NCBI GenBank assembly: GCA_015493215.1 | Contig: WGDP01000041.1 | Span: 1-46,837, forward strand | DNA from: Bacteroidales bacterium | Lineage (GTDB): Bacteria > Bacteroidota > Bacteroidia > Bacteroidales > F082 | Length of the DNA stretch: 46,837 bases | Direction: 5' to 3' | In this document: piece by piece, positions 31,726 through 45,328 of the stretch | How positions within the stretch are numbered: position 1 is the stretch's first letter | How the letters are laid out: each line of letters opens with the position of its first letter | Made by a program: the position numbers and the translations under genes | The notes under the pieces: model-generated | The model's database searches: none | Told to the model about the DNA's origin: nothing | The model's input: the letters and a program-made list of their open reading frames with translations, nothing else

Positions 31726-32088
31726 ATGGGGCATAAAAATTATGTATATCAATGTTTTGCGTTTGATAATCGTATTAAACAATACTTCTATCCGGGAGAG
31801 GATTTTGAGCGGTTTAAAAAAGAGATGGATATGGAGGAGAGGCTGGTACTGGCTTTAGAAATGTTTTTTGACGAAGAAGCCTTTATGCCGGCATTGGTGC
31901 ATAAAATAGAAGAGCTGCTTGGCGAGGGGAATTTTATCTACGATTTTTGGGAATTCGGTGACGATGATTTTTCGCTGTATTGGTATATAAAAAAGAGTGT
32001 TTACCACGAGAAGATGAAACTCATCCGGCAGTGGGTAAAATTTGAGGAGTTGGAGGAGTTTGTTTGGTTTGAGGAGTTGGACGCGTGA
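31726..32088 (+). CDS. Small acidic protein of unknown function
   Basis: This 120-residue soluble protein has no signal peptide. It is rich in acidic and aromatic residues (FFDEEAFMPALVHKIEELLG, YDFWEFGDDDFSLYWYIKK, FEELEEFVWFEELDA). It is predicted helical and contains no motif I recognise. It lies just upstream of the cas operon on the same strand, but a good promoter sits between it and cas6, so it need not belong to the operon. The gene starts at ATG 31726 with no clear Shine-Dalgarno site. It may be an orphan accessory protein; a phage or defence origin is possible but unsupported. Confidence 0.6.
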   Translation: MGHKNYVYQCFAFDNRIKQYFYPGEDFERFKKEMDMEERLVLALEMFFDEEAFMPALVHKIEELLGEGNFIYDFWEFGDDDFSLYWYIKKSVYHEKMKLIRQWVKFEELEEFVWFEELDA

Positions 32089-32105
32089 TAAGTTATTAAC
32101 ATGTG

Positions 32106-32136
32106 TTTGATTGTAGGTTAAATATGACTAAGTTTG
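32106..32136 (+). promoter_or_regulatory. Promoter of the cas effector operon
   Basis: TTTG (32106-32109), 19 nt, then TAAGTTTG (32129-32136): an exact match to the Bacteroidota housekeeping consensus TTTG-N19-TAnnTTTG. Transcription would start near 32143, about 33 nt before the cas6 ATG, which has AGGAGA upstream. Confidence 0.75.
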
Positions 32137-32175
32137 TGGGAATAATAAGAAACATTTAATTATGAGGAGATTGAT

Positions 32176-32895
32176 ATGAGGATAAAAGTTAATTTAGAGT
32201 TAAATACTGACTGGCTTACAAAAGATTACAGGGTAATATTTATGTCATTTTTAAAAAAAATATTGGAATCGTATGATAACACTATTTTAACAAACCTTTA
32301 CGGCACAAAAGAAGAACCGAGAAAAATTAACAAACCATTTACTTTTCATGTCAAGTTTCCTGAATTTAAAAAGTTTGAAGGAAATAAAATTATTTGCGGA
32401 GAAAAGGCTGTTTTTTATTTCTCGACAAATGAGGAAATATTAGCAACAAGCTTTTATAACAGTCTTAAAGAATCTAAGCATTTCACCATAGGGGAAAATT
32501 CATTTATTGAATTTAAGGTTAAAAATATTTGGATAAAACCTTTAAAAATTTTTTCAGAAGAAAAAAGTGTTTTTAAAACTTTGGCTCCAGTGCTTGTTAA
32601 TAAAAAAGGAGACAATCTACATTACCTATCGCCTGTGGACAAAGATTTTTACCAGTCTTTTCTTGATATTATCTTGTTACAGGCAAAAGCCTTTAATATT
32701 GATATAGCTCCTAAAGATATTGAAATTGAGATATATAAAATGAAAAAACTCCCGTTAACCCATTATCGTCAAACCATGACAGCCTGGTTAGGTGAGTTTA
32801 TTTTAAAAGCTCCAAAAGAAGTTTTACAATTGGTTTATGATACAGGCATTGGGGTGAGGCGTTCACAGGGTTTTGGAATGCTGGAAAAAATATAA
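32176..32895 (+). CDS. cas6: CRISPR endoribonuclease Cas6
   Basis: This 239-residue protein has the two-ferredoxin layout of Cas6 and ends in the glycine-rich loop DTGIGVRRSQGFGMLEKI, the family hallmark. Cas6 cuts the CRISPR transcript inside each repeat. The repeats here end in ATTGAAAC, the usual 8-nt 5' handle left by type I-A/I-B Cas6 enzymes. The start ATG is preceded by AGGAGA and lies about 33 nt after the predicted transcription start. It is the first gene of the effector operon; cas8 follows after 4 nt. Base composition is very AT-rich, like the rest of the effector operon. The catalytic His cannot be placed with certainty. Confidence 0.9.
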   Translation: MRIKVNLELNTDWLTKDYRVIFMSFLKKILESYDNTILTNLYGTKEEPRKINKPFTFHVKFPEFKKFEGNKIICGEKAVFYFSTNEEILATSFYNSLKESKHFTIGENSFIEFKVKNIWIKPLKIFSEEKSVFKTLAPVLVNKKGDNLHYLSPVDKDFYQSFLDIILLQAKAFNIDIAPKDIEIEIYKMKKLPLTHYRQTMTAWLGEFILKAPKEVLQLVYDTGIGVRRSQGFGMLEKI

Positions 32896-32899
32896 CGAA

Positions 32900-34087
32900 A
32901 TGGAACAAAAACAACATATAGAACAATTACAATTGGATTTCAGTAACAATTCTGATACTGACAATGGTTATATTGAATTATTTCCGGGAAATTGGTTGTA
33001 TAATGCTGGTGTAATTGGGTTTATTTATGTTTTAGAAAAATGTGGAATAGAAAATATAGATGAATTATTAATAATTGACGGTTCTTTTGCTGGAAATATT
33101 CAAGTATGTTTAAATCGAAAAGTTGAACATAAAAATACAAAGATTCCTAAATTAATCTGGAAATGGCTTGAATTAAGTCGAAGAGAATTAAAAAAAGATG
33201 TTGAAAAAATTGAAGATCCGGTTCATGAGATTTGGGGCACATTATTTAATGTTTATTACAGAGGATTCTTTAACGCAAATACTAAAGATTTATATCAAAA
33301 ATCTAAAAGTTCAGACTCACTATTAAATCAATTATTAGGTTTTTTTTCAGGTTTTAATAAATATGATGAAAATGCACTTACATGTTCATTTTGTAATAGG
33401 AAAAATATATCAAATTATAAAAATACTTTTTCGAACGAGCATTTTAGTGGACTTGGTGGTAGCGGAGGTGATAGGGGTATGCCAAATTCTTTTTGGAATA
33501 ATGACAAAAATTTAGGAACTCATATTTGTGATACTTGTAGTTTTATATTACTTCAAAAGCACTTTGCATTTGCTAATGTTTCAGGTAACACAAAAGTATT
33601 TATCAATGCCCCTTCATTTAAATTGATGTATCAACTTAACCGAATCGTTAATGAAGTTTATATTAACAACTTAAATAATAGAGCATTATTAGCAACATCA
33701 ATAATTGAATTAGCCTCAAATACTAATCTGCTATTTAGTCAATGGACGTCAATGAATATTGAAATAATTGAGGTTAAAGATAAAGTCAGGTTTTTTTCTT
33801 TGCCTTATTCAACCATTAAACTAATTTCTAATAGAAAAATCGCAGAACTGTTAAGCAATATTGGTGAATTTTCAGTTTTAAATGCTATTTTAGAAAAAAA
33901 CTACAACAAAATATCGGATATCGGATATAAATTATTAAAAGTTGGGACAAAAGATATAACGAACAAAAGTGATAATGATTTAGTAAATAGCCTTTTGTAT
34001 CAAAAACGGAATAAAGAAAATATACTTCTTACAGCAAATAAATTGTTTAATTTATATGCATTAATACAGGATCGAATTAAAAAATAA
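32900..34087 (+). CDS. cas8: Cas8-family large subunit with two CXXC motifs (Cst1-like)
   Basis: I start at ATG 32900 (MEQKQHIEQL, 395 aa), 4 nt past the cas6 stop; the ORF-track start is a TTG inside cas6. The N-terminal segment GNWLYNAGVIGFIYVLEKCG is typical of the Cst1/Cas8 family of type I-B systems. Two CXXC pairs (CSFC at 162/165, CDTC at 210/213) make a probable zinc site, as in the CXXC-CXXC Cas8 proteins. The protein should be the Cascade subunit that recognises the PAM and contacts Cas3. At 395 residues it is shorter than many Cas8b proteins. The separate 160-residue gene that follows may supply the small-subunit part. Confidence 0.82.
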   Translation: MEQKQHIEQLQLDFSNNSDTDNGYIELFPGNWLYNAGVIGFIYVLEKCGIENIDELLIIDGSFAGNIQVCLNRKVEHKNTKIPKLIWKWLELSRRELKKDVEKIEDPVHEIWGTLFNVYYRGFFNANTKDLYQKSKSSDSLLNQLLGFFSGFNKYDENALTCSFCNRKNISNYKNTFSNEHFSGLGGSGGDRGMPNSFWNNDKNLGTHICDTCSFILLQKHFAFANVSGNTKVFINAPSFKLMYQLNRIVNEVYINNLNNRALLATSIIELASNTNLLFSQWTSMNIEIIEVKDKVRFFSLPYSTIKLISNRKIAELLSNIGEFSVLNAILEKNYNKISDIGYKLLKVGTKDITNKSDNDLVNSLLYQKRNKENILLTANKLFNLYALIQDRIKK

Positions 34088-34092
34088 GATTT

Positions 34093-34575
34093 ATGGAAGA
34101 AAATAATAAAAATCCGGTAAAACAATACATTGATGATTTAGAAAATAAAGTTAAATCGGGCGGAGCCACAGCAGAAGATTTTAAAAATGCTTTTGCCGAA
34201 TTGCAAAGAGCAAAATTAAAAATTCAACAGCTATTGGAATATAAAACTTTGGATAATAATGATATAAATAATAGTTATTATTCATTATACAAAAAGATAT
34301 CCGGTGAAAACTTCTCTGACTTGGTGGATAAATTGCATGAAATAGGTAGAAAAAATCCAAATAAAGGGTTAAAAGAAGCTTTTAAAAAGCAGAGTTATAG
34401 ACTATTAAGACAAATTAGAACCGGTAATCGTGATAAAGTTTTTTATGATTTTCTTCGAATATTTATTTCATCAGATGAAAAATTTGACAATGCTTTAGTA
34501 AGTGCATTCAAATATCCTGAGGATGAATCATTCAAAGTTTTAATCTATTCTTATTTAAGTGGAATAATTCAATAA
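34093..34575 (+). CDS. Unassigned helical Cas-operon protein, possible Cas11 small subunit
   Basis: This 160-residue protein is fully helical by eye, lysine-rich and soluble, with a coiled segment (about 8-60: YIDDLENKVKSGG, AFAELQRAKLKIQQLLEYK). A second helical part follows (about 85-160: KQSYRLLRQIRTGNRDKVFY). It sits 5 nt after cas8 and 15 nt before cas7, the position where a stand-alone small subunit would be encoded. I recognise no named family. Size, helicity, basic charge and location fit a Cas11-like subunit that binds crRNA/target in Cascade, split off from a short Cas8; this is inference. An alternative is an unrelated regulator. Confidence 0.55.
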   Translation: MEENNKNPVKQYIDDLENKVKSGGATAEDFKNAFAELQRAKLKIQQLLEYKTLDNNDINNSYYSLYKKISGENFSDLVDKLHEIGRKNPNKGLKEAFKKQSYRLLRQIRTGNRDKVFYDFLRIFISSDEKFDNALVSAFKYPEDESFKVLIYSYLSGIIQ

Positions 34576-34590
34576 CAAAATAATCAAATT

Positions 34591-36069
34591 ATGGGAAACA
34601 GTAAAATGGCTGCGGAAAATGTAACTATAACCTTAATTTTTGATGGTTCCGCATTAAACAGAGACGAAAAGATTGGAGGCAATATACTTTCAATTAAGAA
34701 ATTAACCTTTAAAGATGAAGAAAGGCCTTTTATAAGTAAAAATGCCATCCGACACTATTTGTTTACCACACTTATGCAAGCATTTAATTGGGAAGAAACC
34801 CCAATTTTAAAACAAGGTGATGGGAATAAACAAACATTACAATTAGATTTAACAAAAAGTAATATATTAAATTCTAATGAATTAGCATTATTTGGTTATA
34901 TGTTTACTAAAGCAAATGAATCGGCATTAACAAGAAAATCTCCCTTAGGAATAACCAAGGCTATCGGTCTCTTTCCTTACAAACAAGATATGGCTTTTTA
35001 TGCTAATCATGATTTTGTAAACAGAGTGAATAAACAAGGCAAAAATGCTACACCGAATCCTTTAAATAAAGAAGAATATAACGGGTTATTCAAATTATCT
35101 TTTACAATTGATAAAAAAATGTTAGCACAGGATGTCTGGATTGTGGATGAATTTTCATATTCAGAAAACCAGTTAAAAGTAGAAATTGCAAAGCCTCAGA
35201 CTTTTGTAATTAGAAATGTTGAAAAGAAATATGATGATAATGATGAATTTATTGGCTACATCACAAAGGAAGAAGAAAACAGTCCAAGTGAATTTGAAAT
35301 CAAAATCAATGATTTTACAGTTGAGTTACCCAAAAACATGGTAAACATTAGCAAGAATGTATTATCAATAAAGCCTGTATTTGCTTTTGATAGAAAGAAA
35401 AATAATAAAGATAAATATACAACTAAATTCAGTTTTAAAGTTATAGAGTATGAAGAAAATGGAGAATCTGCAAAGGAAAAATCCTATTCATTTGAGTGTA
35501 CATACGAGCCTTTATATGATGAAAAGGGAAAAACACTTACTTTAAAATCCGGTCATGAATCAATAATTGATGGATTTAAGTGTGACAATTACAATAAACA
35601 AAATAAAGTTAACAAATTCACTAATAACAATAATGATGTAATTGAAATAACTTCGCTTGCCGATTCAAATTTTGAAAAAGGGCCTTTTGAATTAAGATTT
35701 AAATTATCTGAGAATAAGGCAAATAATATCATTAAAAACCTTTTGGATTCTATTCACAACGGCCTTACAGCTCATTCAAGCGGCGAGTTAAATACTATTG
35801 TGCCATTATTCTTAATTGCCGGTAAAGTTAAAGTGCCATCCCCGGTATTTCATTCCTATATTGATGTAAGGAGTAAAAATAACGGTACTTACGAAGTTTT
35901 TGGAATCAATGATGCTTTGAAAAACAGGTGGTTGGAAGATTCCGTTTATATATTCGATTCGGAAAGGTTAAAAAGACAACCCCTTCTTAATAAAGATAAA
36001 AACATTGAGGAAAATTGGGATAATTTCTTGAATTTTTTAAATAACAATGACGACAATAATAATTCTTAA
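34591..36069 (+). CDS. cas7: Cas7 (Cst2/DevR family), enlarged
   Basis: This protein has 492 residues. The N-terminal part (NVTITLIFDGSALNRDEKIG, then ERPFISKNAIRHYLFTTLMQ) and the late part (AHSSGELNTIVPLFLIAG then KVKVPSP) match the Cst2/DevR branch of Cas7, which forms the crRNA-coating backbone of type I-B Cascade. Family members are usually about 300 residues. The excess lies in the middle (about 195-370), a charged, Asn/Lys/Glu-rich region with YITKEEENSPSEFEI and YDEKGKTLTLKSGHE. The start could also be Met6. It lies 15 nt after the 160-residue gene and 3 nt before the antitoxin gene. Confidence 0.85.
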   Translation: MGNSKMAAENVTITLIFDGSALNRDEKIGGNILSIKKLTFKDEERPFISKNAIRHYLFTTLMQAFNWEETPILKQGDGNKQTLQLDLTKSNILNSNELALFGYMFTKANESALTRKSPLGITKAIGLFPYKQDMAFYANHDFVNRVNKQGKNATPNPLNKEEYNGLFKLSFTIDKKMLAQDVWIVDEFSYSENQLKVEIAKPQTFVIRNVEKKYDDNDEFIGYITKEEENSPSEFEIKINDFTVELPKNMVNISKNVLSIKPVFAFDRKKNNKDKYTTKFSFKVIEYEENGESAKEKSYSFECTYEPLYDEKGKTLTLKSGHESIIDGFKCDNYNKQNKVNKFTNNNNDVIEITSLADSNFEKGPFELRFKLSENKANNIIKNLLDSIHNGLTAHSSGELNTIVPLFLIAGKVKVPSPVFHSYIDVRSKNNGTYEVFGINDALKNRWLEDSVYIFDSERLKRQPLLNKDKNIEENWDNFLNFLNNNDDNNNS

Positions 36070-36072
36070 AGT

Positions 36073-36273
36073 ATGAAAACAATAGTAATTACACCGGATA
36101 ACGAAAAGGAGTTCAACTTTTTAAATAAACTTCTTGAAAAATTAGGCTATTCTCACAAAATTATAAGTGAAGAAGAAAAAGAGGATATGGGTTTGTTACA
36201 ATTAATGCTTGAAGCACAAAACGATGACAACGTTGACGAAAAGGAAATACTAAATTTACTTGATGCATTATGA
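36073..36273 (+). CDS. Antitoxin of RelE-type pair inside the cas operon
   Basis: This 66-residue acidic protein (MKTIVITPDNEKEFNFLNKL, then EEEKEDMGLLQLMLEAQN) matches the form of small Bacteroidota antitoxins that precede RelE/ParE toxins: a short beta start, a helix and an acidic toxin-wrapping tail. It starts 3 nt after the cas7 stop. Its TGA overlaps the toxin ATG by 4 nt. There is no obvious own promoter in the 3-nt gap, so expression would follow cas7. The assignment rests mainly on size, charge and the toxin beside it. Confidence 0.75.
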   Translation: MKTIVITPDNEKEFNFLNKLLEKLGYSHKIISEEEKEDMGLLQLMLEAQNDDNVDEKEILNLLDAL

Positions 36274-36536
36274 AAATTGTCTATAAAAAATCCTTTGAGA
36301 AAGATATTAAAAAAATCAAAAGCAAATTGATTCGTCAGGAAATAAAAGATACTTTGATGCAGATAAAACGAGCGGAAAATATTTATGAAATATCCGGTGT
36401 CAAAAAATTAAAAGGACATAAAAATGCATACAGAGTCAGGATTGGGGATTACAGAATGGGGTTCTTTTTTACGGGCAATACGGCTACAATTGTGCGGTTT
36501 GTTGATAGAAAAGATATTTATAAAAGATTTCCGTAA
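36270..36536 (+). CDS. RelE/ParE-family toxin inside the cas operon
   Basis: This 88-residue basic protein has the RelE-superfamily layout: MKIVYKKSFEKDIKKIKSKL at the start, LKGHKNAYRVRIGDYRMGFF in the core, and VDRKDIYKRFP at the end. Relatives are ribosome-dependent mRNA endonucleases or gyrase poisons held in check by the antitoxin. The key basic/aromatic residues (Arg in YRVRIGDYR, terminal R-x-x-x-Y) are present, so the toxin looks intact. It overlaps the antitoxin by 4 nt and cas5 by 1 nt (TAATG). It is thus translationally locked into the effector operon between cas7 and cas5. Confidence 0.88.
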   Translation: MKIVYKKSFEKDIKKIKSKLIRQEIKDTLMQIKRAENIYEISGVKKLKGHKNAYRVRIGDYRMGFFFTGNTATIVRFVDRKDIYKRFP

Positions 36537-37333
36537 TGAATAACAGAGTTTTACGTATTAAGATATATCAACCGGCAGCTCATTTTCGAATGCCTTTTAC
36601 CTACCAGCGAAGACATACTTATCCGCTACCACCCTATTCTACAGTGTTTGGAATGCTAATCAATCTTCTTGGTATAAACAACCAAAATAACGATTTATTC
36701 AAAAAAATTATAAAATGCAAGCTATCTGTTTCCGGAAGGTTTGAAACAAAACATACCGAGTATGTATGGTTTCGTAATTTAAGTAAAAAAAGTCATGAAA
36801 AATATTTCGGTAGTTTATCAATAAGAGAAAAAAACGGGCAAATTGAGCATATCGGTGGTCAAAGCCCTATTAAAATTGATGTGCTTGAAAATATGAGTGT
36901 TACTATCCACATTGCTTCATCAGACAAGCCATTTTTAAATTACTTATTCGAATATCTTCAAAATCCGCTTGATCGTCTTGAAGTAATCCATCTTGGAAGA
37001 GCTGAAGACTGGGTAGTTTTTGAAGACATTAGCTTTGTAGAATTACAAACAACAAGTGCCCATAAAAATTATGGACGTTTTTTCTGGATACCAAAAGATA
37101 TTTGGATTCAGAAAAATAACATAAATTTCGACTTTGGGACTATTGAGGGATTATTATACAATTTGCCGGTTTTTTCTACTATTAAAAATTACGAAAACAC
37201 TTTTAACAGAAACGGACAACGTGATTTCAAATACCTCAGGGTAAAATTAAATGATGGTGCGATACGTGGTTTTGATTACCTTTCCGATGATGAAGCACCG
37301 GTATTTTTTGCAGATATTCAAAAGTCCAAATAA
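36536..37333 (+). CDS. cas5: Cas5 (Cas5t-like) Cascade subunit
   Basis: This 265-residue protein has the N-terminal Cas5 signature (LRIKIYQPAAHFRMPFTYQR followed by RHTYPLPPYSTVFGMLINLL). Cas5 caps the 5' handle of the crRNA in Cascade. The later SIREKNGQIEHIGGQSPI and VIHLGRAEDWVVFEDI segments fit the Cas5t branch that accompanies Cst1/Cst2. Its ATG overlaps the toxin stop by one base, so its translation may depend on the toxin gene being translated. Cas3 follows after 8 nt. The protein seems full length. Confidence 0.87.
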   Translation: MNNRVLRIKIYQPAAHFRMPFTYQRRHTYPLPPYSTVFGMLINLLGINNQNNDLFKKIIKCKLSVSGRFETKHTEYVWFRNLSKKSHEKYFGSLSIREKNGQIEHIGGQSPIKIDVLENMSVTIHIASSDKPFLNYLFEYLQNPLDRLEVIHLGRAEDWVVFEDISFVELQTTSAHKNYGRFFWIPKDIWIQKNNINFDFGTIEGLLYNLPVFSTIKNYENTFNRNGQRDFKYLRVKLNDGAIRGFDYLSDDEAPVFFADIQKSK

Positions 37334-37341
37334 AAACAATT

Positions 37342-39990
37342 ATGGAAATCTGGGGAAAAAGTAAAACCAACAAAGGTGATGTTATTACTCTTCAAGAGCA
37401 CATCAATGATGTATTACTGGTTTTGGAACATTATAAAATGAACATTAAAAGTGAAAATGTTTTCAGGCTTACGGAATTGGCTGTAAAATACCATGATTTG
37501 GGAAAAGTATTACCCTATTTTCAAATAAAAACATTGGGAAATAAAAACTATGAACCTTTTGATGTTTACGCAATTATTCCCCATTCCCTGCTTTCCGTAT
37601 TACTTATTAACGGAAACCATCTAAGTAAAGAAATAAACAAGATTGTTGGCGAAGACATAGGACTTGTTTATCAAAATATTGTTTTGTCAGCTATAGCTTA
37701 TCATCACTGGCGCGAAAGTTTTTACGATATTATTGAAGGGTTTAGCGATGTGTTCGAGAATTTTCTGGAACTAGTTAATAACATTTCCAAATGGAATAAA
37801 ATAATTTCAAATTTAAATGAGCTTGGAAAAAGTATAAAAGGAATTGATCCGGATTCTTTACAAATCAATTCGGATATTTTACTTGGACTTACAAACGGTA
37901 TAAAATTTTCCGATTATTTTACCCCGCCTTATCAATTATACCGTTTGCCCGACAGAGTAAAAATCAATCAAAAGAAACTAAACGACTGGGTGCTTATTAG
38001 TGGATTTACAATGCTTTCCGACCATTATGCTTCATTTGTCGAACAAGAATATAATGAATCAGAAAAAAAACAGTATCTAAAAATAACCTATAAAAAACCT
38101 GAAAGTTTTGATGTAGTTAAAAACAAGTTTATTAAAATCTTAAAAGACAAAACAGGGGAATTGATAGATGAAAAAAACATCTGGCAAATTAATAAAGTTG
38201 ATACTTTCCGGAATAATAATACAATTCTGTTAGCCCCTACCGGTATGGGGAAAACAGAATTTGCATTTTTATGGTCGGCCGGTAAAAAGTTTTTTTATAC
38301 CCTGCCTCTTCGTTCGGCTGTAAACCAAATTTACGATAGAACCAAAAACATTTTTGGAGCCGAAAACAGTGGAATACTACATTCTGATGCCGATATATAC
38401 ATCTATGGCGATGGCGGCGAATCGGAATCAATGAAAATTTACGATTTTTCACGGCAATTGACAATGGCTGCAAATATATCAACCGGCGATCAATTCTTTC
38501 CTTATGCTTTACGCCCCCCGGCTTATGAAAAAATATTTGCCAAATTTTCTTACTCCAACCTAATTATTGATGAGATTCAGGCTTATGATCCTAAAGCAGC
38601 CGCAATCGTTGTGAAGTTTACGGAACACATTGTCCAAATGGGAAGCAGGTTTTTATTAATGACAGCAACATTGCCTGACTTTATTAGAGATGAAATAAAT
38701 AAAAGAATAGGAATTGATAATATTAAAACTTTAGATCTTTTTGAAAGTGACCCAAATTTAAAAACATTTGAAAAACATAAGCTTAACATTCTTGTTGACA
38801 ATTTTACCGATAAAAAACTATCATACAATCAGGAAATTATCAATAAAATTACAGAAAAGGCCAAAGAAAATAGCGGACAAAGAGTATTGGTGGTTCTGAA
38901 TACTATTAAACAGGCACAACAGGTTTATGGTGATATTTTAAAAACAAAAGACAATACTTTAAATGTTAAGCTTTTTCATTCAAGATATTCTTTTGAACAT
39001 CGTAAAAAAATTGAGAATGAACTAATGGATTTTATGGGAAATACGCCGGAAAGCAGGAACGATAAAAAGCCTAAAATTCTAATAGCCACTCAGGTTGTGG
39101 AAGCTTCTCTCGATTTGGATGCAGATTACCTGTTCACCGAATTGGCACCATGGGATTCCTTAATTCAGCGTATGGGTAGAGTTCTAAGAGAGTTACGCCC
39201 AAATACTAAAAACATTGATAAAATAATAAAAATTAGATACAACACCGATAATCTTCCTGATAATGTGTTTGTTTTGATTTACGATGGAAAGAATAGCAAA
39301 GGGAAAACCATTTATGAATCAGGAGCAAATTATGTATATAGCAAAGATATTCTTAACAACGCATTATATCTTTTAGAAAGGCGCACCGGTGATGTGGAAA
39401 AAGAGAAGCTGCTTAAAACCTCTATAAATTATACTTTCAAGTCCTCAGGCGAATTTAAAAAGTATAAAAAGTCAGGTTTTTTGTTAAATGAAAATTTGAA
39501 AAATATCTTAGTAAGAAAAAATTATGAAGGGCTTGACAACGAAAGTAACTATTTGAAACGGTTTTATGATATGTTAGAAATATTGGATGCCGGTTTTATG
39601 TCTGAAAGAAAATCGGAGGCACAACATATTTTTAGGGAAATTAATAGTGTTGGGATTATTCCCGAATCCAGAAAAGATGAGTTTTTTAATGATATTAATA
39701 ATTTTGATTTTAACAAAAAGCACCCTTACACGCGTTTTAAAAAAGATATTATTTCTAAATTTGTAGTCAACGTTCAACGTTACAAAGTTGAAGAATTTCT
39801 TTACGATACAAATACCGTTGCAACGCAATTGTCCTTGAGCAGCGATTTCGTATCATTTAACGAAGAAGCTAAAGTAATGAAAAAACTGAAAAATTGGCTT
39901 TGGGGATATTATTTTGCAAACGTTGAATATTCTGAAAATAAAGGTTTGACAGGTATAATAAAAGAGGAATCAAACAATATGTTTCTGTAA
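37342..39990 (+). CDS. cas3: Cas3 HD nuclease-helicase
   Basis: This 882-residue fusion has an N-terminal HD nuclease (about 15-235: His20, HD at 51-52, His81, then the AIAYHHWRE motif). A superfamily 2 helicase follows, with Walker A APTGMGKT (298-305), motif II DEIQ (410-413), motif III LLMTATLP, and motifs V/VI in IATQVVEASLDLDAD and LIQRMGRVLRE. Cas3 is recruited by Cascade after target binding, then unwinds and degrades the DNA. All key motifs are present, so it appears active. It is the last gene of the effector operon; the next 490 nt carry no gene. Confidence 0.94.
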   Translation: MEIWGKSKTNKGDVITLQEHINDVLLVLEHYKMNIKSENVFRLTELAVKYHDLGKVLPYFQIKTLGNKNYEPFDVYAIIPHSLLSVLLINGNHLSKEINKIVGEDIGLVYQNIVLSAIAYHHWRESFYDIIEGFSDVFENFLELVNNISKWNKIISNLNELGKSIKGIDPDSLQINSDILLGLTNGIKFSDYFTPPYQLYRLPDRVKINQKKLNDWVLISGFTMLSDHYASFVEQEYNESEKKQYLKITYKKPESFDVVKNKFIKILKDKTGELIDEKNIWQINKVDTFRNNNTILLAPTGMGKTEFAFLWSAGKKFFYTLPLRSAVNQIYDRTKNIFGAENSGILHSDADIYIYGDGGESESMKIYDFSRQLTMAANISTGDQFFPYALRPPAYEKIFAKFSYSNLIIDEIQAYDPKAAAIVVKFTEHIVQMGSRFLLMTATLPDFIRDEINKRIGIDNIKTLDLFESDPNLKTFEKHKLNILVDNFTDKKLSYNQEIINKITEKAKENSGQRVLVVLNTIKQAQQVYGDILKTKDNTLNVKLFHSRYSFEHRKKIENELMDFMGNTPESRNDKKPKILIATQVVEASLDLDADYLFTELAPWDSLIQRMGRVLRELRPNTKNIDKIIKIRYNTDNLPDNVFVLIYDGKNSKGKTIYESGANYVYSKDILNNALYLLERRTGDVEKEKLLKTSINYTFKSSGEFKKYKKSGFLLNENLKNILVRKNYEGLDNESNYLKRFYDMLEILDAGFMSERKSEAQHIFREINSVGIIPESRKDEFFNDINNFDFNKKHPYTRFKKDIISKFVVNVQRYKVEEFLYDTNTVATQLSLSSDFVSFNEEAKVMKKLKNWLWGYYFANVEYSENKGLTGIIKEESNNMFL

Positions 39991-40094
39991 TAACATTAAA
40001 TCTGACATCAAAATTCCTAAAAACCCCAGATTTTCTAAAACTTTAATAAAAAATTGCACTATGCATTGTGTATCTGTCAATTAACCAACACCCC

Positions 40095-40160
40095 ATGTTT
40101 ATCTTTCGTTTCACCATAATTGCCGTTTCACCTTGGTAAGATAAAACGAAGGGTAAACAT
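40095..40160. repeat. Imperfect inverted repeat downstream of cas3
   Basis: ATGTTTATCTTTCGTTT (40095-40111) pairs with AAACGAAGGGTAAACAT (40144-40160) over 17 bp with two wobble-type mismatches. It lies about 105 nt past the cas3 stop and may be a transcription end or the trace of an inserted element. Confidence 0.45.
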
Positions 40161-40290
40161 TTGTAAAAAAAGAAAAAACCTCTCGTTTTGATGAAAGCAG
40201 AAGAAAATGGTGCTAAAATTTCTGGCACGTAAATTATTTCCGGCAATATGGATTATCTTATTGTGGGTTAGTTATATACATCGGTTTTTA

Positions 40291-40352
40291 AATAATGTTT
40301 TGAGTAACGCAACTTTTATTATCTGGTGGAAAAACTTACACAAAACATTATT
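40291..40352. repeat. 12-bp perfect inverted repeat upstream of abiEi
   Basis: AATAATGTTTTG (40291-40302) and CAAAACATTATT (40341-40352) are exact complements, 38 nt apart. They lie upstream of the abiEi promoter. AbiEi-type proteins bind inverted repeats near their own promoter, so this could be an operator (inference). Together with the repeat at 40095 it is the only structure seen in 39991-40421. Confidence 0.45.
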
Positions 40353-40421
40353 CAAATATTTATATAGGTTGATTTCTTTCGTGTAAAACCGGTTGTTCTG
40401 ATTGATTTGAATAAGTTTTTC

Positions 40422-40452
40422 TTGCATATAATAATTTTATGTATTACTTTTG
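40422..40452 (+). promoter_or_regulatory. Promoter of abiEi and downstream genes
   Basis: TTG (40422-40424), 20 nt, then TACTTTTG (40445-40452) fits the Bacteroidota consensus closely. The start of transcription would be near 40459, some 23 nt before the abiEi ATG. It could also drive the coiled-coil gene and perhaps cas4-cas1-cas2. Confidence 0.65.
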
Positions 40453-40481
40453 CTATTAAATCCAAACTATGACCTAATTTT

Positions 40482-41246
40482 ATGAGAGATTTGCAATATA
40501 GATTTTTAGAAATGCTTGATGAATTCGGCTATGATATTTTTAATCTGAAAATGATTAAAGACACCGGATATTTTTCGGCCAAACGAATAAGCTATGCTTT
40601 AAAATCTTTAACAAAATCAGGAATGCTAATAAAAATCGAACAAGGGAAATATGTCAGAAGCAATTTTAACAATGAATTTGTAATAGGTAATTTTTTAGCT
40701 CCTGATGGTGGAATCGGTTATTGGTCTGCATTAAATTCCTATGGTTTAACCGAACAATTTCCGAATGTAATATTTATCCAGACATCAAAAAGAAAAGGCG
40801 AAATAGTTTTTAGAAACCTGCGCTACAAATTTGTCAAGGTTGCTCCCCGTAAACTAAAGGGTTATAAAAAAATTGGAATTGGCAACCACAGTTACAGGAT
40901 GAGTGATTTGGAAAAGACCATTGTTGATTGCTTTGATTTGCCTCAACATGCCGGCTGGTATCACGAAACAATCAAAGCATTTAATAATGCCAAGCTGAAT
41001 CCCAACAAATTAATCAGGTATTGCAAAATAATCAATAATACATCTGCTACCAAACGTATGGGATATTTAAGTGAATTATTAGGAAAAAAGGAAATGGCAT
41101 CATTTATACAATATGCACAAAGTGCAATAAAGCAATCTTATTCGCTATTTGAAATCAGTGGAGAAACCGATGGGCAATATGACAACAGATGGAAGTTGGT
41201 TATAAATATGCCTATTGAGGAAATTATTGAAATTGCAAATTCATGA
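40482..41246 (+). CDS. abiEi: AbiEi-family antitoxin/transcriptional regulator, orphan
   Basis: This 254-residue protein has an N-terminal winged helix (about 1-60: LKMIKDTGYFSAKRISYALK then SLTKSGMLIKIEQGKYVR). A larger AbiEi-like domain follows (GYWSALNSYGLTEQ, FVKVAPRK, MSDLEKTIVDCFDLPQHAG, MGYLSELLG). AbiEi is the antitoxin and self-repressor of the type IV AbiE abortive-infection system; its partner AbiEii is a nucleotidyltransferase toxin. Here the ATGA overlap expected for the toxin start is present, but only the two ends of the toxin gene remain. The regulator is therefore an orphan. It lies between cas3 and cas4 with its own promoter. Confidence 0.82.
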   Translation: MRDLQYRFLEMLDEFGYDIFNLKMIKDTGYFSAKRISYALKSLTKSGMLIKIEQGKYVRSNFNNEFVIGNFLAPDGGIGYWSALNSYGLTEQFPNVIFIQTSKRKGEIVFRNLRYKFVKVAPRKLKGYKKIGIGNHSYRMSDLEKTIVDCFDLPQHAGWYHETIKAFNNAKLNPNKLIRYCKIINNTSATKRMGYLSELLGKKEMASFIQYAQSAIKQSYSLFEISGETDGQYDNRWKLVINMPIEEIIEIANS

Positions 41247-41376
41247 CAAACAAAGAAAAAACAAACGTGCCTGGAAAAGTAGTTTAAGCCATCATTTACC
41301 CTCCGGCAAGCTTCCTGAAATTGATTCGGTTTACGATGAGTTGAAAAGTTTTATAGAATCTATATTAAAAAAATAA
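41243..41376 (+). pseudogene. Deletion scar of the abiEii toxin gene
   Basis: An ATG overlapping the abiEi stop (ATGA) opens MTNKEKTNVP, the usual start of AbiEii proteins (MNKEKTNV...), but that frame stops at codon 15. In another frame the sequence ends in RAWKSSLSHHLPSGKLPEID, then VYDELKSFIESILKK and stop at 41376. This resembles an AbiEii C-terminus (W-x-x-x-L...LP...Y-x-x-L-x-x-F). The whole nucleotidyltransferase core, some 200 or more codons, is missing. I read this as an internal deletion leaving about 9 N-terminal and 38 C-terminal codons. Confidence 0.65.
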
Positions 41377-41400
41377 TCAATAATTTTAAAACAGTATAAA

Positions 41401-42411
41401 ATGGAAGAAATCACCAACAAAAACACAAAAGCACAAATTCTTGAAGCGTATGAAAAGCTTCTGAAACAGGTAAAAGAGGCCAAAGCCGAAAAACCGAAAC
41501 AGGTGCAACAGGAAAAACAGGAACGGGAAACCGTTAAAAAAGTTGAAAAGGTTACTGATAAAGCCATTGTTGACGAAATAGGAAACCTAAAAACCAATCT
41601 TGCCAAAAGTCTTGATAAAGTTGAGGATTCGCTGTTGGCTGAGTTTGAAAAGCTTAAAGAGCTAAAGGAGGCCATTGAAGTGGAAAAGAAAAACCTGAAA
41701 GAACTTTATGATCTGTCGGTTACCACCGATTCGCTAGCGGCCATGCTACTGGCACAAAAAGAACAGAAGGAAGCTTTTGAAAAAGAAATGAAAGAGCAGA
41801 AAGAAGTATTCGAACAGGAAATGGCCGATAAACATACACAATGGAAATTGGAAAAAGAGCGGCTGGAACGCGAAGAAAAAGAGTATCAGGAAGAGCTAAA
41901 GAAAAAGCGCAAGCGCGAAGAGGAAGAATACCAATATGCCTTAAAAATAACCCGTCAGAAAGAGGCCGATGCCTATGCCGCCAAAAAAGCAAAATTGGAA
42001 ACTGAATTGGAAGAAAAGCGTGCCGCCTTTGAAAAAGAGATTGCCGAAAGAGAAGCCAATGTTTCCAAAGCCGAAAAAGAGTTGGCCGAATTGAGGGCAA
42101 AAGCCGAAAACTTTCCAAAAGAACTGGAAAAAGCCGTTGCCGACAAAGAAAAAGAGATTACAAAGCAACTTGCTTCCAAATTTGAATTTGAAAGCAAACT
42201 GGCCGAAAAACAAAACGAGGGTGAGCTGCGACTAAAAGGGCAAACCATTGAAGCTTTAAAAGAGAAAATTGCCGAAATGCAAAAACAAATCAAAGAGCTG
42301 AGCGAAAAAGCCAACCTCGCTGAGAAAAATGTGAAAGATATAGCAGTAAAAGCCATCGAAAGCAGTTCTAAAATCCAGGTGTTTCCGGCTAAAGAAAACG
42401 ATAAGGAATAG
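41401..42411 (+). CDS. Long coiled-coil protein of unknown function in the cas locus
   Basis: This 336-residue soluble protein is almost wholly coiled coil. Residues about 5-60 are Lys/Glu/Gln-rich and 60-110 carry leucine heptads (LDKVEDSLLAEFEKLKELKE). A short break (SVTTDSLAAMLLAQ) precedes an unbroken charged helix from about 125 to 330 (EFESKLAEKQNEGELRLKGQ; LKEKIAEMQKQIKELSEKAN). It has no signal peptide, membrane segment or nucleotide-binding motif. It starts 24 nt after the abiEii scar and is followed after 45 nt by an unknown helical gene. Coiled-coil proteins of this kind may be structural or SMC-like scaffold parts; the role beside cas4-cas1-cas2 is open. Confidence 0.75.
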   Translation: MEEITNKNTKAQILEAYEKLLKQVKEAKAEKPKQVQQEKQERETVKKVEKVTDKAIVDEIGNLKTNLAKSLDKVEDSLLAEFEKLKELKEAIEVEKKNLKELYDLSVTTDSLAAMLLAQKEQKEAFEKEMKEQKEVFEQEMADKHTQWKLEKERLEREEKEYQEELKKKRKREEEEYQYALKITRQKEADAYAAKKAKLETELEEKRAAFEKEIAEREANVSKAEKELAELRAKAENFPKELEKAVADKEKEITKQLASKFEFESKLAEKQNEGELRLKGQTIEALKEKIAEMQKQIKELSEKANLAEKNVKDIAVKAIESSSKIQVFPAKENDKE

Positions 42412-42456
42412 TAAAAACAAGTTCAAATGCTAAATTAAAACTTTAAAAATTTTCCC

Positions 42457-43476
42457 ATGCCTGCCAAACAACCCTTAAAACTTACCGAACTGCGTGCCCT
42501 GATAAAAAAGCACGACCGCAAAGACTTGGAATTTATTATTGCACAATTGTACAAGATGATTCCAAAAGATAAAAAAATTGATAATGATGTAGCCTCATTA
42601 ATTGAAAATCCGGAGAAGTTTGCGAATAGCTCCAAAACCTCAAAAAAAGGTAAAGCAATGCGGCCTTTCAGCGAAGTGGAAAAAGAAGTTTTGTTTTTTG
42701 AAGCCAATGCCTATGAACAAAACTATATGATACCAAACCGGAGTATTAAAAAAGCCGACAGGCCCAAATGGCGTTTTGTGGTTAAAAGGCTGTACAAAGA
42801 GCTGAATGAGTATGCCAAACAGGAAGACTACATCAAAAAAACTGCCGACAACCTGCTTAAACTATACGAAGTGCTTACCTATGCCTGCGGTTACTATCTG
42901 TTTAATGCTTACGATGCGTTTGAATCGGTGGGTATTGCACAAGAAACATTCTTTCAATCGGTTGTTGATAAATATAATAAAACACAGGAGAGAGAAGCAT
43001 TTATTTCAAAGTCTATTGATATCATGTTCGACAACTTTTTGAACCGTTACACCCTTTATTCAGATTTGATGTGGGTATTTTTGGAATATGTTCAAACACC
43101 TGATATGCTTTATCTTACCATTGATATTTCCCGGCAAAAACGACAAAAACTGGCAAAAAGTGAAAAAACGACAAAAGGCGACTATGAATATGAGGTAGAA
43201 AAAAAGCTTAATAATTACACCGAGTTGATTTTCAGGTGTTATGCCGGTCTGTATGAATTTGATAATGCCCTTAACGATTATCAAAAATATGCCATTGAAA
43301 GAGAGGAAGAGGTAAAGTTATATATTCTTATCAGCCTTTTATTCGATTATGAAAAGAAAGACTTGATTTTGAAACTTATTATTGAAAATGAGAAGAAAAT
43401 GGCACTAAGAGAACGCCTGATTAAACTGAAAAATTATATTTTGGAAAAAGATGAATTACCAAAGTATATGTATTAG
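42457..43476 (+). CDS. Helical protein of unknown function upstream of cas4
   Basis: This 339-residue protein is soluble and largely helical. The first ~55 residues (LKLTELRALIKKHDRKDLEF, IIAQLYKMIPKDKK) have an L-x-x-L-x-x-x-(D/E)L-x-x-x-I-x-x-LY pattern reminiscent of DUF6155-type N-termini, which is a weak match. Residues about 75-339 form a helical repeat-like domain (TADNLLKLYEVLTYACGYYL, DLMWVFLEYVQTPDML, ALNDYQKYAIEREEEVKLYI). There are no catalytic motifs. It lies between the coiled-coil gene and cas4 (11 nt before cas4), so it is probably co-transcribed with the adaptation genes. It and the coiled-coil protein look like a two-gene unit. Confidence 0.72.
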   Translation: MPAKQPLKLTELRALIKKHDRKDLEFIIAQLYKMIPKDKKIDNDVASLIENPEKFANSSKTSKKGKAMRPFSEVEKEVLFFEANAYEQNYMIPNRSIKKADRPKWRFVVKRLYKELNEYAKQEDYIKKTADNLLKLYEVLTYACGYYLFNAYDAFESVGIAQETFFQSVVDKYNKTQEREAFISKSIDIMFDNFLNRYTLYSDLMWVFLEYVQTPDMLYLTIDISRQKRQKLAKSEKTTKGDYEYEVEKKLNNYTELIFRCYAGLYEFDNALNDYQKYAIEREEEVKLYILISLLFDYEKKDLILKLIIENEKKMALRERLIKLKNYILEKDELPKYMY

Positions 43477-43487
43477 TAACTGTACAA

Positions 43488-44006
43488 ATGCAAATAACCG
43501 GTACCCATATCAACTATTATTTTGTTTGCAAGCGCAAACTGTGGCTTTTTGCCAACAACATTCAAATGGAGCACACCAGCAGCCGGGTTTCAGAGGGTAA
43601 TCTTATTCATGAAACCACCTATCAGCAACGCACATCAAAATACGAAGAGGTTGCCATTGGTGGTATTAAAGTTGATTATTACGATGCAAAAAACAAAGTA
43701 ATTCACGAAGTTAAAAAGTCAAATAAAATTGAAACGGCTCACATTTGGCAGCTAAAATATTATCTGTTTGTTTTTGAAAAAGCCGGTATTGAAGGAGTAA
43801 CAGGCAAACTTGAATATCCCAAATTGCGTCAAACCGAGGAGGTGATTCTAAGCAATCGGGATGTTGAAGAACTGCAAGATGTTATAAACGAGATTAAAAA
43901 TATAATAACATCGGAAACATGCCCCGGAGTTCTTAACGCTACAATTTGCAAACGATGCAGCTATTATGACTTTTGCTTTAGCGGAGAAGCCGAACAGGAT
44001 GAATAA
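43488..44006 (+). CDS. cas4: Cas4 spacer-processing nuclease
   Basis: This 172-residue RecB-like nuclease has the four cluster-binding cysteines, Cys14 (VCKRKLWLF) and Cys154/157/163 (ICKRCSYYDFC). The nuclease residues His41, Asp63 (VDYYD), Glu74 and Lys76 (HEVKKS) and the QLKYYL motif are also visible. Cas4 trims pre-spacers and helps choose those next to a proper PAM together with Cas1-Cas2. It is short but complete for the Cas4 of type I-B loci. It starts the adaptation module cas4-cas1-cas2 and follows the unknown helical gene by 11 nt. Confidence 0.93.
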   Translation: MQITGTHINYYFVCKRKLWLFANNIQMEHTSSRVSEGNLIHETTYQQRTSKYEEVAIGGIKVDYYDAKNKVIHEVKKSNKIETAHIWQLKYYLFVFEKAGIEGVTGKLEYPKLRQTEEVILSNRDVEELQDVINEIKNIITSETCPGVLNATICKRCSYYDFCFSGEAEQDE

Positions 44007-44043
44007 ATTTAACAACTAAACACAGACTTTAAAATTAATAAGC

Positions 44044-45051
44044 ATGTCAAAAAAAACCTATTACCTGTTCAACCCCGGTCGCTTGTCACGCAAGGACAAT
44101 ACGCTTAAATTCACTCCTGTTGACCAAAATGGGATTGAAGGAAAGCCACGTTATCTGCCTGTTGAGCAAGTTGACCAGTTATACTGTTTTGGCACCATTG
44201 ATGCCAACTCGTCCATGTACAACTTTCTTGGAAAAAACGAAATTGCTGTCCATTTTTTCGACTACTACGAAAACTACACCGGATCGTTTTTATCAAAAGA
44301 TTACCTTTTATCGGGCAAAATGCTCATTAAACAATCGGCACATTACTCATCCCTTAAAAAGCGAATAAAAATTGCCAGAGCGTTTATCGAAGGAGCAAGT
44401 TACAACATTTTAAAAAACCTTAAATATTATCAAAACCGCGGCAAAGAACTTGAAAGCTATATTACTCAAATAGAAACTTATCGCAAAAGCATAAGCAGCA
44501 TTAACCGGATTGATAAATTAATGGGTATTGAAGGAAACATCCGGATGACCTATTACAAGGCTTTCGATATTATTTTGAACGGACTTAAAATGGAAGGGCG
44601 AAGCATGCAGCCTCCGCAAAACGAAGTAAATGCCCTTATTTCGTTTGGTAACATGATGTGTTATGCGCAGGTTTTAAGAAGCATACATCAAACGCAATTA
44701 AACCCTGTTATCAGTTTTTTACACAGCCCCGGCGAACGACGATATTCGCTGGCACTCGATTTATCCGAAATATTTAAACCCTTACTTGTTGACCGGGTAA
44801 TATTTAAAGTGCTAAACAAAAACATGCTTACTGCCAACGATTTTGATTCAAAAATCGGGCGTATAGTAATGAAAGAAAAGGGTAAGAAAAAATTTATTGA
44901 AACCTTTGAGCAGCGCCTTTCCGAAACCATTATGCACCGTACACTCGAAAGGAAAGTGAGTTATAAACATTTAATAAAGCTGGAAGCCTATAAGTTACAA
45001 AAGCACCTTTTGGATATAGAAGAATACAAGCCATTTAAAATGTGGTGGTAA
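44044..45051 (+). CDS. cas1: Cas1 spacer integrase
   Basis: This 335-residue protein has the type I-B Cas1 layout: an N-terminal beta domain ([38 protein letters not shown]) and a helical catalytic domain. The metal ligands Glu163 ([12 protein letters not shown]), His227 ([19 protein letters not shown]) and Asp239/Glu242 are present. With Cas2 it inserts new spacers at the leader end of the array. It lies 37 nt after cas4 and 13 nt before cas2. Its base composition is noticeably richer in GC than that of the cas6-cas3 operon. Confidence 0.95.
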
Positions 45052-45064
45052 AAGAGTAATAATT

Positions 45065-45328
45065 ATGTATGTAATATTGGTTTACGACATTGGCGAAAAG
45101 CGGGTAGGCAAAATGCTCAAATTGTGCCGAAAATATTTAAACTGGATTCAGAACTCGGTATTTGAAGGCGAGTTAACCGAAATTCAGCTAAAACGGCTTA
45201 AATTTGAAGCCTCTGAGATTATGAAAAAAGAAGAAGACAGTTTAATTATTTTTAAAACAAGGCAGGAAAAATGGCTTGAAAAAGAGGTGATTGGTGAAGA
45301 AAAAAACACGCTGGATCAATTTTTATAG
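45065..45328 (+). CDS. cas2: Cas2 adaptation subunit
   Basis: This 87-residue protein has the Cas2 ferredoxin fold start MYVILVYDIGEKRVGKMLKL with the conserved Asp8, then the NSVFEGELTEIQLKRLK segment seen in all Cas2 proteins. It forms the bridge between two Cas1 dimers in the integrase. Length is normal for the family. It is the last cas gene; the CRISPR leader begins right after its stop. Confidence 0.95.
   Translation: MYVILVYDIGEKRVGKMLKLCRKYLNWIQNSVFEGELTEIQLKRLKFEASEIMKKEEDSLIIFKTRQEKWLEKEVIGEEKNTLDQFL

Follow-up and report, generated by a model that had tools for sequence, protein, structure and literature searches.

The AbiEi antitoxin encoded within a type I-B CRISPR-Cas locus of a Bacteroidales bacterium is intact, and the AbiEii toxin gene that follows it has been reduced to its last 43 codons. 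The whole stretch of DNA analysed here (contig C41, 46,837 nucleotides), called the window, belongs to a draft genome of 3.9 Mb in 355 contigs, and its relatives are Bacteroidota. We judge the chances to be even that AbiEi persists as the autorepressor of an abiEi-...-cas4-cas1-cas2 transcript, a proposal that supposes a shared promoter, binding of AbiEi in front of its own gene and selection on the resulting control. The AbiE type IV toxin-antitoxin operon lies within the type I-B cas locus, with the interference genes on one side and cas4-cas1-cas2 on the other; according to this proposal, a deletion that spared only the start codon and the last 43 codons of the toxin inactivated it. AbiEi would have been kept as a DNA-binding protein that represses its own promoter, which would also feed a downstream gene for a 339-aa protein and cas4-cas1-cas2; by binding an inverted repeat at 40095-40160, the repressor would hold that transcript down. 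The antitoxin may thus now serve mainly to control the CRISPR genes for acquiring immunity to new viruses.

The AbiE operon and its toxin remnant

The type I-B CRISPR-Cas locus occupies the window from 32176 to its end, all genes being on the + strand in the order cas6, cas8-like, cas7 (Cst2/DevR), cas5t, cas3, abiEi, toxin remnant, two further genes, cas4-cas1-cas2 and array. The interference module (32176-39990), delimited from open reading frames and NCBIfam matches (TIGR01877, TIGR02585, TIGR01895 and TIGR01587/TIGR01596), comprises cas6 (32176-32895), a cas8-like gene labelled from its position alone (32873-34087), an open reading frame at 34093-34575, cas7 (34591-36069), cas5t (36536-37333) and cas3 (37342-39990). 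The adaptation module (43488-45328) is composed of cas4 (43488-44006; TIGR00372), a subtype I-B cas1 (44044-45051; TIGR03641) and cas2 (45065-45328; TIGR01573). A repeat scan found the CRISPR array, with about 20 repeats, from approximately 45400 to the contig end at 46837. The cas6, cas7, cas5t, cas3, cas4, cas1 and cas2 matches and the array together place the locus in type I-B.

A gene for a 336-aa coiled-coil-like protein (41401-42411, + strand) and the gene for the 339-aa protein (42457-43476, + strand) lie between the toxin remnant and cas4; neither product matched a Pfam family above cut-off, and the 336-aa protein had no PADLOC match either. A relative of the coiled-coil-like gene is found beyond cas6 in another locus (L146). 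A RelB/ParE-like toxin-antitoxin pair (36073-36536; ParE_toxin PF05016, E=1.4e-6) is located between cas7 and cas5, so that this cas locus had two toxin-antitoxin modules, that pair and AbiE. A relB-like fragment also adjoins abiE in the cas locus L148.

The abiEi gene (40482-41246, + strand) encodes a type IV antitoxin/repressor of 254 aa that consists of a wHTH, a C-terminal domain and an extra tail past about residue 200. It matches the PADLOC AbiEi family PDLC02267 over residues 5-252 (E=3.6e-79), and its Pfam AbiEi_1 score is 17.6 bits, under the cut-off of 22.2. Since a sequence-profile search of the PDB gave no match, folds were compared: the AlphaFold model (pLDDT 90.9, with a low-confidence stretch at about 210-230) has as its best solved Foldseek matches the AbiEi of Streptococcus agalactiae (6y8q, E=4.6e-9) and Rv2827c (1zel). 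The nearest relatives align along the whole length at 51-64% identity, L140 being the nearest (64%); in the class-level sample the identities are just 37-51%. Family match, full-length alignment and predicted fold bear out the preliminary description, in which AbiEi was held to be intact.

What is left of abiEii (41245-41376, + strand) is its last 43 codons, DKQRKNKRAW...SFIESILKK, and a stop. The remnant is 48% identical to residues 242-283 of the complete AbiEii of genome G145 (E=2.7e-7 in a search of the whole own genome), and it aligns with positions 222-259 of the 260 of the PADLOC AbiEii family (E=7.1e-6). The nucleotidyltransferase core motifs (FKGGTCLxK / GGTxL.K and SEDLDF), present in all complete relatives, are gone from 41243-41376, so the earlier statement that the toxin core is missing is confirmed. 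The complete relatives pass Pfam AbiEii (DUF1814 nucleotidyltransferase). The window toxin is without about 240 of its 284 residues, so there is no complete AbiE system, and 41245-41376 is classed by sequence as a remnant of AbiEii and not as a member of the toxin family. No closer copy of the toxin is present elsewhere in the own genome, which holds just diverged paralogues on contigs C224, C20 and C283.

The preliminary description also recognised two toxin ends in different frames. The C-terminal end and the difference in frame were upheld; the N-terminal piece, MTNKEKTNVP, was rejected as an AbiEii fragment, being mostly, perhaps wholly, remnant DNA read out of frame. In the nearest intact relatives, this C-terminal part of AbiEii is ...PDKQKANNRAW in L140 and ...NKQKYRKNKRAW in L043; the wider stretch is FVNPDKQKANNRAWQSSL in L140, FVNKQKYRKNKRAWDKSL in L043 and DKQRKNKRAWKSSL in the window from 41245. 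From that position the window DNA, GAC AAA CAA AGA AAA AAC AAA CGT GCC TGG (DKQRKNKRAW), continues the segment of the relatives, and ATG ACA AAC AAA GAA AAA ACA AAC GTG is therefore a reading of it in another frame. The open reading frame that starts at the toxin's ATG (41243-41287, + strand) is out of frame with the remnant and has 14 codons, MTNKEKTNVPGKVV, before its stop. There is no gap between the two ends: the start codon abuts the 43-codon C-terminus, joined out of frame. Judged from the alignment, the toxin start contributes just ATG(A) with certainty, and another 0-5 codons are ambiguous because both ends look alike at the junction, where the toxin start of several relatives, MTYKE, resembles the C-terminal piece. 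This likeness is in keeping with a deletion whose endpoints lay in short similar sequences.

A second species with the same junction

A second species of the same genus (G004) carries the same deletion. Its abiEi is split over two contigs, whose ends overlap within the gene over about 50 identical nt. The second of these contigs (L035) runs through the same junction into the remnant, which is directly followed by the conserved 339-aa gene (dN/dS 0.146) and then by cas4, cas1, cas2 and an array; the 336-aa gene is missing at this place. The preliminary description had allowed for an assembly error behind which the full toxin would be present, and the draft state of the genome gives that idea some ground. 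However, G004 has the junction too, with other substitutions around it, and no contig of the genome holds a closer toxin copy, which rules out an assembly or binning artefact for practical purposes.

The interference modules of the two species are different, G004 having the order cas6-cas5-cas3-cas8-cas7, and the next outward gene is the same in both. Different modules between common flanks indicate that the interference module has been exchanged up to the abiEi edge (window 31726-39990, L034 960-7338); the outer gene and the abiEi-cas4-cas1-cas2 side are common to both species, and the deletion is shared with the adaptation side.

When the two toxin-less species are compared, residues 1-175 of AbiEi show a dN/dS of 0.051 (28.5 synonymous and 6.5 nonsynonymous changes, dS about 0.3), about as low as those of cas1 (0.047) and cas2 (0.046), and residues 176-193 show 0.08. 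These values point to strong purifying selection on residues 1-175 and argue for retention of the antitoxin. A one-base frameshift near codon 195 removes the tail of the G004 protein. Past this point dN/dS rises to 0.35 and the codon-position bias is lost; tail dN is 6.25 times core dN, a higher ratio than in 60 of 61 other close pairs (median 1.25), which suggests that the frameshift is probably real. The AbiEi structure from S. agalactiae comprises about 195 residues and the window model is of low confidence at about 210-230, so G004 has lost just the tail beyond the known AbiEi core. In S. agalactiae, a truncated AbiEi failed to repress (PMC3985639).

The frameshift and the relaxed tail count against retention, and they favour the main rival explanation, passive decay, in which the toxin, being harmless to lose, disappears before the antitoxin, so that the window and G004 would represent successive stages and AbiEi would be without a job. 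The loss of the tail in G004, which is further along, fits ongoing decay, though the lost part lies beyond the known core. The low dN/dS of residues 1-175, on the other hand, is not expected of a mere passenger if the deletion predates the split of the species. We regard passive decay as a real possibility, although a rather doubtful one.

The constraint on the remnant itself bears on that condition. Of its 19 changes between the two species (41245-41373 against L035 287-415), 14 affect the third position of a codon (binomial p=0.0004), first and second positions being depleted; its dS, 0.73, is higher than that of AbiEi residues 1-175. Either the remnant is still translated, or part of its divergence predates the deletion, for instance if the deletion happened more than once. 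On the second view AbiEi would owe part of its constraint to the time spent with the toxin, and its low dN/dS would say less about its present role; such protein-like constraint on the remnant, expected if much of the divergence predates the deletion, is thus another point against retention. The former would mean that the 43 codons are still useful, for example as a small protein, the toxin gene having been reshaped and not lost. The codon-position pattern agrees with this idea. However, the remnant frame has no ATG, its possible starts are TTG codons alone, which overlap the end of abiEi, and the same pattern would arise from divergence older than the deletion or from a deletion that recurred at a short direct repeat. 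A translated remnant is therefore considered very unlikely.

Candidate operator and promoter elements upstream of abiEi

The AbiEi of S. agalactiae represses its own promoter by binding inverted repeats (PMC3985639), and this autoregulation speaks for a similar role here. The intergenic region 39990-40482 was scanned for inverted repeats and promoters. The putative AbiEi operator (40095-40160, + strand) is an inverted repeat, ATGTTTATCTTTCGTTT...AAACGAAGGGTAAACAT, with half-sites 42 bp apart; a degenerate -7-like element, CATAATTG, stands 8 nt after the left half-site. The repeat lies in an 86-bp island (40082-40167) that is 90.7% identical to G004 and has non-homologous DNA on either side, the cas module to the left having been exchanged between the species and the DNA to the right being different. 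Its pattern, ACCTTT-N42-AAAGGT, is exact in G004 and has one mismatch per half-site in the window, where the repeat is single-copy in the own genome. It is also the best inverted repeat upstream of the G004 gene, above all of 100 shuffles. Conservation of this operator-like island between unrelated flanks argues for the retention of AbiEi as a repressor and is unexpected under passive decay, again if the deletion is older than the species.

The ACCTTT/AAAGGT half-sites occur in 14 other abiE loci, with a spacing of N41-43 in nearly all, and several loci carry a Bacteroidota -7 element between them. When arm complementarity was required and one mismatch per half-site was allowed, 14 of 92 upstream regions carried the pattern; shuffled sequences had it in 12 of 900 cases, and gene interiors in none of 92. 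The half-site was not found in the closest complete relatives (L042-L047 and L140), indicating that the operator sequence varies within the clade. The geometry is similar to that of the S. agalactiae repeat, TGTTGCTTTTA-N27-TAAAAGCAACA (PMC3985639).

A promoter-like element of the Bacteroidota -33/-7 type, TTG-N20-TACTTTTG, is present closer to the gene (40422-40452, + strand; TACTTTTG at 40445-40452). It is conserved in G004, as is the stretch 40428-40482, and both species have TAnnTTTG at -37. The 100 bp proximal to abiEi hold no inverted repeat beyond chance, and none clearly overlaps this promoter. The putative operator stands about 320 bp from abiEi in the window and about 180 bp in G004, farther than in relatives. 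The distance, the degenerate -7 element and the lack of a clear repeat over the proximal promoter weigh against the retained repressor. No terminator-like site was found on the + strand from 39990 to 43490, and a common transcript from abiEi to cas4-cas1-cas2 is proposed on these grounds.

The preliminary description had suggested 40291-40482 as the region to test for AbiEi binding. An operator there was rejected: the region is mostly unconserved in G004, the strong repeat in it is specific to the window, and the likely operator is the one at 40095-40160. The repeat in question, TTTAAATAATGTTTTGAGTAA-N28-TTACACAAAACATTATTCAAA (40287-40356, + strand; none of 100 shuffles as good), has 21-bp arms and a 28-bp spacer, that is, the geometry of an AbiE operator with a different sequence. 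A hydrophobic open reading frame of 59 codons (40207-40386) overlaps it.

AbiEi could also have been kept as a free-standing antitoxin against AbiEii toxins from mobile elements or from elsewhere in the genome. The C-terminal domain of the AbiE antitoxin alone protects, and it acts without binding the toxin (PMC3985639); besides, the same genome holds another AbiE pair, on contig C224. However, the AbiEi of that pair is just 30% identical to that of the window and has its own toxin, and the conservation of the operator-like island and the position in a cas locus would be left unexplained. This explanation is regarded as improbable.

Toxin loss and AbiE in other cas loci

The GTDB collection and 393 genomes of the order were scanned, yielding about 100 further loci. 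Where at least 900 bp of sequence followed abiEi, 3 of 20 loci embedded in cas loci and 7 of 57 others have a broken toxin or none (Fisher p=0.71), so that no enrichment in cas loci is seen. The seven include L152, a distant AbiEi that has no toxin near it. In-frame deletions of the AbiEii core in L102 and L078, also outside cas loci, leave short open frames beside an intact AbiEi, and L102 keeps little beyond the toxin C-terminus, as in the window. Loss of the toxin alone thus recurs in unrelated lineages, inside and outside cas loci, and is not special to CRISPR, as passive decay would have it; other bacteria, too, commonly carry orphan antitoxins (PMC7192599). Since broken toxins are about as common elsewhere, toxin loss alone is no proof of co-option, a point against the retained repressor. 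In its favour, a second and independent toxin loss is found in G523 (L150 9148-9549), where an intact AbiEi lies next to cas4 and a toxin start of about 19 codons is fused to the tail of an unrelated ATP-binding (HATPase_c_4-like) protein. The suggestion of the preliminary description that AbiEi was kept to regulate the downstream genes therefore stands in part: low dN/dS and a putative operator conserved in both species agree with it, while the toxin loss is no sign of it and the G004 frameshift speaks against it.

The AbiE operon is embedded in about two dozen cas loci, on the cas strand and mostly between cas7 and cas5 or before cas4. For instance, the order is cas8-cas7-abiEi-abiEii-cas5-cas3-cas4 in G145 and cas7-...-abiEi-abiEii-...-cas4-cas1 in G162; in both, as in L140, the toxin whose core the window lost is intact. 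A culturable relative, Anaerophaga thermohalophila DSM 12881 (L064/L067), also has the complete pair. Either cas5-cas3-cas4-cas1-cas2 or cas4-cas1-cas2 follows the pair in the same direction, and in the cas5 arrangement the gaps behind abiEii are short, which again favours a regulatory role. In the unselected sample of the order (393 genomes), 14 of 19 loci, the window left out, have cas genes in the stretch examined. In the AbiEi tree the window falls into a supported group of 17, 15 of them in cas loci, and the cas-locus label changes 5 times compared with 20.7 in shuffles; one member comes from Ignavibacteria (L061).

AbiEi might even be a dedicated repressor of CRISPR adaptation, its core and operator being maintained in the two species only for cas4-cas1-cas2. 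In the intact clade AbiEi would do the same job, with the toxin also making loss of the locus costly. This stronger version is put forward tentatively.

Earlier work has described AbiE itself, orphan antitoxins and toxin-antitoxin modules linked to CRISPR (CreTA). Neither abiE inside cas operons nor toxin-less members in cas loci that keep antitoxin and presumed operator are described in the open-access literature searched. The window system shares with the AbiE of S. agalactiae (Dy et al. 2014, PMC3985639) the antitoxin family and fold, the antitoxin-toxin gene order with overlapping or adjoining ends and an operator-like repeat. Unlike it, the toxin consists of its last 43 codons, the operon is in a type I-B cas locus, the putative operator is distant and AbiEi has a 50-residue tail beyond the solved core. 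Like CreTA, it is a toxin-antitoxin module within a type I cas locus; CreTA, however, is made of small RNAs and its repression depends on Cascade (PMC10097628, PMC9458426), whereas here both partners are or were proteins and the antitoxin is proposed to be its own repressor. It has an antitoxin without toxin, like the orphan antitoxins described, for example, in Klebsiella (PMC7192599), but the remnant still adjoins it, G004 has the junction as well, and the presumed operator has been conserved.

An AbiE clade that is co-directional in type I cas operons across Bacteroidota would make AbiEi a candidate regulator of cas genes, and AbiE embedded in this way would be a protein counterpart to the RNA guards CreTA. 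The complete pair, the toxin-less form and the toxin-less form with a trimmed antitoxin constitute a natural series in which regulatory and toxic roles are separable. In the nearest relative, L140 (9498-11968), an N-terminal cas4 fragment lies directly before abiEi and a further cas4 after abiEii, a layout suggestive of either an insertion of abiE into cas4 or a duplication of cas4 around it.
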